This document shows positions 29,503-45,728 of a stretch of DNA of 64,000 bases, piece by piece (position 1 is the stretch's first letter; every line of letters starts with the position of its first letter). The stretch spans positions 124,001 to 188,000 of the forward strand of contig NZ_JAMTCO010000016.1 of NCBI RefSeq assembly GCF_024171925.1, in the 5' to 3' direction. The position numbers and the translations under genes were made by a program. Under the pieces are notes generated by a model. It was not told where the DNA came from. It worked only from the letters and a program-made list of their open reading frames with translations, and did not search any database. Source of the stretch: Actinokineospora diospyrosa. Lineage in GTDB: Bacteria > Actinomycetota > Actinomycetes > Mycobacteriales > Pseudonocardiaceae.

Positions 29503-30938
29503 CCGCGCGCCGGGTGGTCGTCGTCGGCTACGGCATGGCGGGAGCCCGGTTCGCCGACGAAGTCCGCCGCCGGGACCCGGCCGGGGAACGGGTCGCGCTG
29601 ACCGTGGTCGGGGCCGAGCCGCACCCCGCGTACAACCGGGTCCTGCTTTCCGCTGTGCTGGCCGGGACGATGCCCCCATCGCTGGTGGGCCTGCACGGAC
29701 CGGATTGGGCGGTGGAGACCGGCGTCGATCTCCGGGTCGGGGTCGGTGCGCGGTCCGTCGACCGGGTCGGGCGGACGGTGACGCTGTCCGATGAGTCCAC
29801 TGTGGAGTACGACGCGCTCGTCCTCGCGACCGGGAGCCGCGCCTGGGTCCCGCCGGTGGACGGCTTGCGCACCGAATCCGGCGCGCTGGCACCGGATGTG
29901 GCGACGTTCCGGGACTTGGACGACTGCGCGGCGATCATCGACCACGCCCGGCCGGGTGCGCCGATCGCGGTCCTCGGCGGGGGTCTCCTCGGGCTGGAGG
30001 CCGCGCGGGGACTGCTGGGCCGCGGTTGCCTGGTCACCGTGGTTCACCCCGTCGGGCACCTGATGGAACGCCAGCTCGACCCGGCGGCGGGCGCGGTGCT
30101 CGCCAAGACCCTCACCGACCTGGGCATCGACGTCCGCTTGGGGCGCTCCGCGGCCCAACACGTCAGCGGGGACGGCCTCAAGCTCGACGACGGCAGCCAC
30201 GTCCCGGCCGAGTTGGTGGTCGTCGCCGCCGGGGCGCGCGCGGAGGTGGGTATCGCCGAGTCGATCGGGCTGTCGGTGCGCGGCGGGATCGTGGTCGACG
30301 ACCTGTTGCGCACCAGCGATCCCCGGATCCACGCGATCGGCGACTGCGCCACCCACCCCGGCACGGCGGCCGGTCTGGTCCAACCCGCGTGGGACCAGGC
30401 CACCGTGCTGGCCGACCTGCTGACCGGCGCCGACCCGGCCGCCCGCTACCGCTCGACGCCCGCCGTCACCCGTCTCAAAGCGCGCGGCGTCGACCTGGCC
30501 GCACTCGGCGAGACCCACGCCGAGGATGCCGAGGTCATCACGCTGCACGACCCGGCCCGCGGCCGCTACGCCAAGCTCGTCCTGCGCGACGACCGGGTGG
30601 CGGGTGCCATCGTCCTCGGTTTCCCCGACGCGGCCGCCACCATCACCGAGTTCTTCGACACCGGCGCCCCGGCCCCCGCCGACCGGCTCGCCCTCCTCCT
30701 CGGCCGGGCCAACCCCGGCGGTGCGCAACCCCGCTCACCAGCCCAGTTGCCCGACGACGCGCTCGTCTGCCGCTGCAACACCGTCACCAAGTCCCGCCTC
30801 GTCGAAGCCTGGCGCGCGGGAGCTACCGACGTGCCCGCCCTGGTGGCGGCCACCCGCGCCACCACCGGGTGCGGCACCTGCACCGACAGCACGCGGGCCA
30901 TCGCCGAGTGGCTCGCCACGACCCCGGAGAGGCCATGA
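29499..30938 (+). CDS. NirB/NasB-like FAD-NAD(P)H oxidoreductase with BFD-type [2Fe-2S] domain
   Basis: The 479-residue protein has an N-terminal FAD site (VVVVGYGMAGARFADE), the PAYNRVLLS segment typical of nitrite/rubredoxin reductases, an NAD site (IAVLGGGLLGLEAARG), HAIGDCATH for the second FAD motif, and a C-terminal BFD-like domain with CRCNTVTKSRL and TGCGTC as [2Fe-2S] ligands. It probably passes electrons from NAD(P)H to the adjacent nitrate reductase. It lacks the sirohaem domains of NirB, so it is not itself a nitrite reductase. Both ends overlap neighbours by 4 nt. Confidence 0.85.
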   Translation: MTARRVVVVGYGMAGARFADEVRRRDPAGERVALTVVGAEPHPAYNRVLLSAVLAGTMPPSLVGLHGPDWAVETGVDLRVGVGARSVDRVGRTVTLSDESTVEYDALVLATGSRAWVPPVDGLRTESGALAPDVATFRDLDDCAAIIDHARPGAPIAVLGGGLLGLEAARGLLGRGCLVTVVHPVGHLMERQLDPAAGAVLAKTLTDLGIDVRLGRSAAQHVSGDGLKLDDGSHVPAELVVVAAGARAEVGIAESIGLSVRGGIVVDDLLRTSDPRIHAIGDCATHPGTAAGLVQPAWDQATVLADLLTGADPAARYRSTPAVTRLKARGVDLAALGETHAEDAEVITLHDPARGRYAKLVLRDDRVAGAIVLGFPDAAATITEFFDTGAPAPADRLALLLGRANPGGAQPRSPAQLPDDALVCRCNTVTKSRLVEAWRAGATDVPALVAATRATTGCGTCTDSTRAIAEWLATTPERP

Positions 30939-44259: not shown

Positions 44260-44317
44260 CGGACCGACTCCGCAACCGATCTACAGTGGCGTGACTCGAC
44301 CGACGGGGGAGCCCCAC

Positions 44318-45652
44318 GTGTCCACTGGGATCCGCAACGATGAGCCTGCCTCTAAAGACACGCTCGACCGGGACAAGATGGCCCGGGCGCTCGCAGCGGC
44401 TGTTCGCGTGTGTGGCACCCCGCTCGTGGTTGGTGTCTACGGGTCATGGGGGACCGGCAAGACTTCCTTGATGCGGTTGGTGCAAGACGAGCTGCGCAAG
44501 GAGCCCGACTACTACACGGTTTGGTTCGACTCGTGGCAGCACCAGTTCGACGACAACCCCGCCATCGGCCTGCTGCACACCATGGTCACCCAGCTCGGCC
44601 TCGGTGAGGACGAGGACGCCCAGGAGTTGCTCACCGCGGTGGCGGGTGCCTTCACCGATCTCACCCAGTGGGTCCAACCGCTCGTTGACTCCACCCTGCA
44701 GTTGGACGAGCTCCGGGAGAGGTTCCTCAAGGAGCGATTCGCGGCAAGAGAGCAACAGATCCTCCTAAGAGACCACCTCATCAAGCTGCTCGCTAAAGCC
44801 ACCAAGGGCGGCAAGATCCGGCTGACGTTCTTCATAGACGACCTCGACCGGTGCCTGCCCGAGTACATCCTCAAGACCCTTGAGGCGCTGAAGCTGTTCC
44901 TCAACCTCCCGGACTGCGTGTTCATCCTCGGCGTCGACCGGGACGCGCTGGAGAGCACCATCCGGACCCGCTACGGCGACGAGGGCATCAGCGAGCACTA
45001 CCTGGACAAGATCGTCCAGGTCCCGTTCGCGCTGCCGCCGATCACCAAGGCCGCCGCGACCCGGTTCGTCCGCTCGATGCTGCCCGACGAGCTGGCGGGC
45101 CTGACCGAGCACATCGTCGCCGGGCTCGACCCCAACCCGCGCGGGCTCAAGCGGTTCGTCAACTCGTTCATCCTCAACAACGAGCTGGCCAAGCAGATCT
45201 TCGAGGGGCCCGCCTACGACCCCAAGGTGCTGGCCTACCTGCTGATCGTCCAGTACCGGTTGCCCGCGTTCTACAAGGAGGTCGTCGACTCCCGGCAGGC
45301 GCTGATCGCCAGCGGGCCGGACAAGACGGTCAACAAGATCAGCGACGTCTCGGTGATCAAGCTGGCCGAGCTGGTGAGGCGCGACACCACGGCCCTGGAC
45401 GGGTACATCTACCTGTCCGAGGTGGTCAGCGTGCGCCGGATCGCCTTCGACCTGGTCGTCACCGAGGTCGGCGAGTTCCGCATCCAGCTGATCAGGGTGT
45501 TGCGCGAGCAGCTCGGGCTCAGCCTCAAAGACGCCAAGGACCTGGTCGAGACCGGCGTCCCGATCACCATCGCCACCGCGCTGAGCAGGGAGAAGGCCGA
45601 CGGGCTGCTGGTCAAGGTGCGCGAGACCGGCAGCACGGCGGAGATCGTCTGA
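44318..45652 (+). CDS. KAP-family P-loop NTPase with C-terminal L7/L12-like domain
   Basis: The 444-residue protein starts at GTG 44318 after GGGGGAG. Walker A is VGVYGSWGTGKTSLMRL (about 38-54) and Walker B is LTFFIDDLDRCLPEYI, with VFILGVDRDALESTI, the KAP order. Many KAP proteins have membrane spans between the two Walker motifs; here that insert is helical and soluble. The last 68 residues, from FDLVVTEVGEF through LREQLGLSLKDAKDLVE to the end, align along the whole L7/L12 C-terminal domain. It lies between adnB and the K+ channel. KAP proteins include the phage-exclusion protein PifA, so a defence role is possible but unproven. Confidence 0.85.
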   Translation: MSTGIRNDEPASKDTLDRDKMARALAAAVRVCGTPLVVGVYGSWGTGKTSLMRLVQDELRKEPDYYTVWFDSWQHQFDDNPAIGLLHTMVTQLGLGEDEDAQELLTAVAGAFTDLTQWVQPLVDSTLQLDELRERFLKERFAAREQQILLRDHLIKLLAKATKGGKIRLTFFIDDLDRCLPEYILKTLEALKLFLNLPDCVFILGVDRDALESTIRTRYGDEGISEHYLDKIVQVPFALPPITKAAATRFVRSMLPDELAGLTEHIVAGLDPNPRGLKRFVNSFILNNELAKQIFEGPAYDPKVLAYLLIVQYRLPAFYKEVVDSRQALIASGPDKTVNKISDVSVIKLAELVRRDTTALDGYIYLSEVVSVRRIAFDLVVTEVGEFRIQLIRVLREQLGLSLKDAKDLVETGVPITIATALSREKADGLLVKVRETGSTAEIV

Positions 45653-45698: not shown

Positions 45699-45728
45699 GT
45701 GAGTCGCACGGTGGGGCAGTGGCGGTGA
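45699..45728 (+). CDS. Leaderless micro-ORF overlapping the K+ channel start
   Basis: GTG 45699 encodes VSRTVGQWR and stops at TGA 45726-45728, overlapping the channel GTG at 45725 (GTGA). The channel gene has no good ribosome site, so coupling through this micro-ORF would explain how it is translated. Confidence 0.35.
   Translation: MSRTVGQWR

Follow-up and report, generated by a model that had tools for sequence, protein, structure and literature searches.

The window analyzed here, a 64,000-nucleotide stretch from the soil bacterium Actinokineospora diospyrosa (positions 124,001 to 188,000 of contig NZ_JAMTCO010000016.1), encodes a protein in which a KAP P-loop nucleoside triphosphatase (NTPase) domain is fused to the C-terminal domain (CTD) of the ribosomal protein bL12 (L7/L12). 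We name this protein KL12; it is specified by a single open reading frame (ORF; window positions 44318 to 45652, plus strand) that begins with GTG and yields 444 amino acids, and it is a genuine, maintained KAP-bL12 CTD fusion. As judged from its sequence, it is a variant within the KAP family, the fusion being new and the KAP and L12 modules being of known kinds. We tentatively propose, as one possibility, that KL12 is a conflict-type KAP ATPase, the tail of which might engage translational GTPases, perhaps in the form of an oligomeric stalk displayed off the ribosome.

Both domains are recovered over curated cut-offs in a Pfam scan of KL12, as a sequence-only reading of this DNA had claimed: KAP_NTPase (PF07693; residues 18 to 283, positions 44369 to 45166) scores 123.6 bits against a cut-off of 20 (E 1.2e-35), and Ribosomal_L12 (PF00542; residues 377 to 443) scores 49 bits against a cut-off of 25.9 (E 7.5e-13) and covers positions 1 to 66 of a 67-position profile. 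The ORF, its coordinates, and its Walker motifs are likewise as that reading described them. The Walker A motif GSWGTGKTS (residues 42 to 50, 44441 to 44467) has G42, W44, G45, G47, K48, and T49 invariant across nine orthologues, as is FFIDDLDRC (171 to 179), which overlaps the Walker B motif FIDDLDRCLP (residues 172 to 181, 44831 to 44860). A third motif characteristic of the family, NPRxLKRFVN (residues 273 to 282, 45134 to 45163), retains N273, P274, R275, K278, R279, F280, V281, and N282 in the same nine orthologues and may have a sensor role. It is common for KAP NTPases to have transmembrane helices within the P-loop domain, although these are neither universal nor a requirement for membership. 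KL12 differs from such relatives in that hydropathy indicates no transmembrane segment (best 19-residue Kyte-Doolittle mean 1.54), by which measure it is probably soluble, and in carrying the L12 CTD.

Between the two domains lies a region (residues 284 to 376, 45167 to 45445) that by eye has no Ala/Gly-rich hinge. The bL12 CTD proper (residues 377 to 444, 45446 to 45649) was delineated using Pfam, a search of solved structures, and the orthologue tails. With the 68-residue tail as query, the top solved structure is bL12 itself (1dd3, E 1e-9, tail residues 1 to 67). KL12 resembles bL12 in possessing a complete CTD with the factor-face basic residues. Unlike bL12, it has no N-terminal dimerization domain, the full-length model TIGR00855 matching only in its CTD part (38.4 bits versus a cut-off of 84.4).

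Orthologues of KL12, 52 to 88% identical, are carried by 9 of the 16 Actinokineospora genomes, and A. terrae, A. globicatena, and A. inagensis are among the species with full-length versions. Each tail scores 46 to 67 bits, over the L12 cut-off of 25.9 in all nine cases, so that the loss of the tail in homologues, which the sequence-only reading had named as telling against its claim, is not seen in this set. Chance similarity of the tail to L12 is ruled out by its retention in the nine orthologues. Relative to the window's version the tails are 47 to 91% identical, with 12 of the 68 columns invariant. In all nine carriers KL12 lies on the same strand between adnB and a K+ channel gene, so that these orthologues share both the fusion and the neighbors. 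The earlier claim that the gene is an insertion between these two genes holds within the genus: adnB directly precedes the channel gene in four of the seven noncarriers, with 90 to 138 bp between match edges, and in the remainder the two genes are either rearranged (two of seven) or on separate contigs (one of seven).

The wider distribution was surveyed in samples with E-value limits. A family sample of 297 genomes, which contains the 16 of the genus, yielded matches in 39 (E up to 1e-20), full-length in nine, all of them Actinokineospora. In a class sample of 394 genomes (E up to 1e-25) eight had a match, and the tail was reached only in the window's genome, G000. Among 398 genomes from the phylum of G970, a Thiotrichaceae metagenome-assembled genome that contains the locus L043, 11 had a match and none reached the tail. 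A collection of 84,980 species was also scanned by short exact peptides, a scan that gave the best 80 matches and is informative for close relatives only. None of the 5 matching phage records covered 80% of the query, none of the 175 matching plasmid records was full-length, and four loci from viral contigs, found via two short peptide patterns, presented the KAP part only and no full-length KL12. Within the range of these searches the fusion appears confined to one genus, and it is unreported in the open-license literature as searched, where "L7/L12" is not searchable as a term.

To place the tail among its ribosomal counterparts, the nine tails were aligned with the CTDs of 116 ordinary bL12 proteins, of which 41 are actinobacterial and 75 come from the 84,980-species scan. 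Eleven alignment columns hold a basic residue in 60% or more of the ordinary CTDs, and of these only 388, 393, 396, and 407 are basic in every one of the nine tails. These four (R388, R393, R396, and K407 in KL12, codon stretch 45479 to 45538) correspond by alignment spacing to E. coli K65, K70, R73, and K84, residues of the face that contacts translation factors. In E. coli L12, K65 and K70 are reported to matter for binding of EF-Tu, and K65, K70, K81, and K84 are described as highly conserved in bL12 (PMC10602876). The remaining seven columns behave differently: 424 is basic in 8/9 tails, 404 (K81) in 7/9, and 444 in 4/9, and at columns 387, 415, 419, and 431, where bL12 usually has a basic residue, no tail has one. 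Given four columns basic throughout and four never so, the alignment indicates that the factor-facing patch has been kept while part of the remaining charge pattern has been lost. The statement of the sequence-only reading that the factor-binding basic positions are kept as Arg is correct for the window's KL12. By eye, each of three nonribosomal L12-like sequences (L201, L202, and L206) lacks at least one of the four basic residues.

Each of the nine carriers also possesses an ordinary bL12. The window's version of the tail shows 34% identity to the bL12 encoded in the same genome, versus a mean of 41% to the bL12 of other phyla, and accordingly an origin by recent copying of that bL12 is unsupported. 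The nine tails span 34 to 48% identity to that same bL12; in four of the other eight, this value slightly exceeds the average over other phyla, by about 2 points. Few genomes of the phylum have a second L12-like match: a search found a match in 275 of 296 genomes, 11 of which besides G000 had two, and these 11, together with four order-level genomes, were searched again. One of the sequences so found, L202 (G363:C11:211785-211985, minus strand), is an L12-CTD-like domain (PF00542, 56.8 bits) in frame inside an apparent RNA polymerase beta subunit, about 2.7 kb from the ordinary rplL of the same genome; its family (f40) has six other genomes, each with one L12 match or none. Four others (L206, L207, L210, and L211) are small open frames of approximately 100 to 150 amino acids from the same class or order that contain all or part of the helix region of an L12-CTD-like domain; in some of them an N-terminal segment is hydrophobic.

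Such reuse bears on an alternative in which the L12 fold of KL12, as in ClpS-like folds, serves only in protein binding or packing with no link to translation. The L12-like domain inside RpoB (L202) would be one instance of reuse for another end, and a further parallel is offered by predicted conflict proteins of Bacteroidetes, in which an L12/ClpS domain is inserted in a beta-propeller vWA-MoxR system; the account of these L12/ClpS domains terms them multimerizing and, in the part that describes them, makes no connection with translation (PMC7159879). Those proteins resemble KL12 in the reuse of an L12-type domain in a predicted NTPase-based conflict system, but there the domain is an insertion in a vWA/beta-propeller component, whereas KL12 is a KAP protein with a C-terminal fusion. 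However, the Pfam listing for KL12 at E up to 1 contains no ClpS family, and a mere packing module would not readily account for four factor-face positions that are basic in 9/9 tails when columns 387, 415, 419, and 431 are basic in 0/9. We hold this alternative to be unlikely.

The region following the KAP domain was compared with that of 18 KAP relatives (13 actinobacterial, 1 from a cyanobacterial plasmid, 2 from viral contigs, and 2 from Bacteroidales contigs), all scanned whole against Pfam. Six of these have a downstream domain that scores above its Pfam threshold: TIR in L164 (67.5 bits) and L183 (70.5 bits), TIR with STAND in L185 (40.9 and 51.3 bits), a receiver domain in L179 (32.7 bits) and L181 (59.5 bits), and a borderline NACHT in L178 (29.1 bits versus a cut-off of 26.7 for the whole protein and 23.9 for the C-terminal part alone). 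These six share with KL12 the order of KAP, further region, and C-terminal domain; they differ in being only 28 to 40% identical over the aligned KAP region and in having TIR, receiver, NACHT, or STAND in place of L12. The L12 CTD was found by Pfam in none of the 18. On these architectures, L12 fills the place held by an immune-type or signaling domain in one-third of the relatives, which is not a rule. A tree of the KAP domains is poorly supported at depth, with 10 of its 24 inner branches starred and a number of long branches, and nothing was drawn from it.

ATPases of the KAP kind are frequent in antiviral defense. Among characterized and predicted defense proteins, the best PADLOC match of KL12 is the defense candidate PDC-S20 (E 7.8e-41), a model of similar length; however, the match spans positions 10 to 263 of its 464 and leaves the tail of KL12 uncovered. 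QatA, of the Qat antiphage system, is also matched (E 3.5e-47), but with 161.4 bits against an equivalog cut-off of 600, and KL12 adjoins adnB and the K+ channel gene rather than partners of the Qat type: QatB, QatC, and QatD are absent among the PADLOC models for the 10 neighboring genes (of adnA and adnB, the best 25). The match to PifA spans only positions 5 to 256 of 720. Membership of KL12 in PifA or QatA was accordingly rejected, there being neither a full-length PifA match nor a score at the QatA cut-off nor an adjacent qatBCD.

The immediate upstream neighbors of KL12 have UvrD-helicase and PD-(D/E)XK nuclease domains in Pfam, which fit AdnA and AdnB in type and order; the downstream neighbor combines ion-channel and TrkA_N domains. 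In G152, G167, and G078 there is 0.5 to 1.4 kb more between KL12 and the channel gene than in other carriers, and in two of these, G078 and G167 (L148 and L149), the additional 1.3 to 1.4 kb contains ORFs that look repetitive and no gene that we could recognize. In the other eight carriers the adnB fragment is 83 to 96% identical to the window's, and in noncarriers 73 to 81%, a partition that fits a single gain or a single loss of KL12 on one branch within the genus. A recent mobile gain is unsupported, there being no full-length match in phages, plasmids, or viral contigs and no tRNA in window positions 30000 to 64000; integrases and insertion sequences were not specifically searched.

Upstream of KL12 is a conserved promoter-like element, GATCTACAGTGG (44278 to 44289, plus strand), in which TACAGT is a possible -10 box; the sequence GATCTA(C/G) occurs upstream of the gene in eight of the nine carriers. 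A Shine-Dalgarno-like GGGGGAG (44305 to 44311, plus strand) probably serves the GTG at 44318, and purine-rich stretches precede the start in several orthologues. On the other side, a short upstream ORF of 8 to 10 codons (window positions 45699 to 45728, here VSRTVGQWR) has a GTG start a short distance past a TANNNT box; in 14 of the 16 loci examined, by a search that asked for this layout, its stop shares bases with the start of the channel gene as GTGA or ATGA. The arrangement suggests a leaderless leader peptide translationally coupled to the channel, the start of which is then probably at 45725 and not at 45719. With its own upstream element, and with a channel gene that has its own leader, KL12 appears to form a transcription unit of its own.

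Over five genome pairs the ratio of nonsynonymous to synonymous differences (pN/pS) is 0.24 to 0.47 for KL12, 0.11 to 0.24 for the C-terminal part of adnB, and 0.03 to 0.19 for the channel gene. KL12 is thus under purifying selection overall, yet evolves faster than both neighbors, by factors of 1.3 to 2.6 and 2.5 to 9, respectively. The tail considered alone gives 0.35, 0.96, and 0.56 in three pairs, noisy values from 67 or 68 codons. Plant immune receptors carry integrated decoy domains, and by analogy the L12 CTD could be the lure for a stalk-attacking or stalk-binding protein of an invader, and binding of that protein would trigger the KAP ATPase. Rapid evolution of KL12 would suit such a decoy, as would a factor-facing surface kept while much of the remaining tail changes, since a decoy must keep the face that is attacked. 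Nevertheless, this seems decidedly improbable to us: the tail, with the identities to host bL12 given above, is no close copy of the protein that it should imitate, KL12 has no recognized death effector, and a phage protein targeting bL12 was not identified in a search of the open-license literature on stalk, phage, and decoy.

Overall constraint could also be read as the mark of a resident, lineage-specific translation-related ATPase, in which the L12 CTD gives access to ribosomes or translational GTPases in quality control or in adaptation to stress, and not in defense. The pN/pS below 0.5 in all five pairs, the retained factor-facing patch, the shared upstream element, the constant locus, and the fact that 8 of the 10 neighboring genes match no PADLOC model are what such a protein would be expected to display. 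Conversely, KL12 is absent from the other seven genomes of the genus and was not found elsewhere in the samples, and hence is not core; its excess of pN/pS over both neighbors and the immune-type domains on some KAP relatives also speak against a resident role. We consider this resident function doubtful, though not far-fetched.

We therefore return to the proposal of a conflict-type ATPase directed at translation factors. The sequence-only reading had interpreted the protein as an NTPase that senses or attacks translation factors or ribosomes, possibly as a defense effector; of this, the domain identity and the insertion stand, and the translation link and the conflict role become the favored parts of an interpretation. 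The former is favored by the factor-facing patch kept in 9/9 tails, and the latter by the TIR, receiver, NACHT, or STAND domains in 6/18 KAP relatives together with the fast evolution of KL12. On these sequence comparisons we regard the translation link as plausible and specific and the defense role as plausible but unproven. QatA, a KAP NTPase, is described as a DNA-binding heptamer or octamer (PMC13279940), and KL12 might oligomerize by analogy; if so, it would present several L12 CTDs together, which is the basis of the off-ribosome stalk proposal. In this scenario KL12 would be a soluble, probably single-gene, conflict-type KAP ATPase, ATP-dependent oligomerization of which would display a cluster of L12 CTDs like the ribosomal stalk but away from the ribosome; these could capture, or read the state of, the translational GTPases EF-G, EF-Tu, and IF2, and such capture would slow translation during infection or stress. 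GTPase binding, translation arrest, the trigger, and a defense role are each conjectural steps here. A more pointed version, which we think unlikely to hold, would make KL12 a stalk mimic, an immune-type KAP ATPase that on sensing invasion forms a ring bearing several stalk domains and thereby seizes or falsely stimulates translation factors.

Several observations weigh against this proposal. At 388 and 393, equivalent to K65 and K70, KL12 has Arg, and the substitutions K65R and K70R are reported to weaken EF-Tu binding by the E. coli protein (PMC10602876). The comparison behind the patch is itself imperfect, as the search expression required K/R at the four positions (though it missed none of the 116 loci) and most of the 75 bL12 sequences from the species scan were fetched partly by the pattern KDAKDLVE, which biases the set; the helix may instead be retained for folding. 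The tail pN/pS reaches 0.96 in one of the three pairs. Among the KAP relatives, three of the 18 (L182, L188, and L186) have only sub-threshold receiver matches and nine (L180, L184, L187, L189, L169, L165, L166, L012, and L013) have no downstream signaling domain in Pfam. The matches of KL12 to PDC-S20, QatA, and PifA indicate KAP family likeness only, since AdnA and AdnB likewise match GajB models in PADLOC, as expected of UvrD-type helicases. With the other eight neighbors unmatched, nothing marks the locus as a defense island. No partner gene is seen among the immediate neighbors, and the fixed locus in 9/9 carriers and the lack of a tRNA noted above count on the same side.

If the main proposal is right, the L12 CTD gives an immune-type NTPase a direct route to translation factors, in a family few of whose effectors and sensors are known. 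The stalk-mimic version, if true, would represent a new way to stop translation without a nuclease, an NADase, or damage to the ribosome. With four basic residues on one small domain and a set of nine genomes, the hypothesis is simple to probe, and KL12 may connect immunity in bacteria to protein synthesis.
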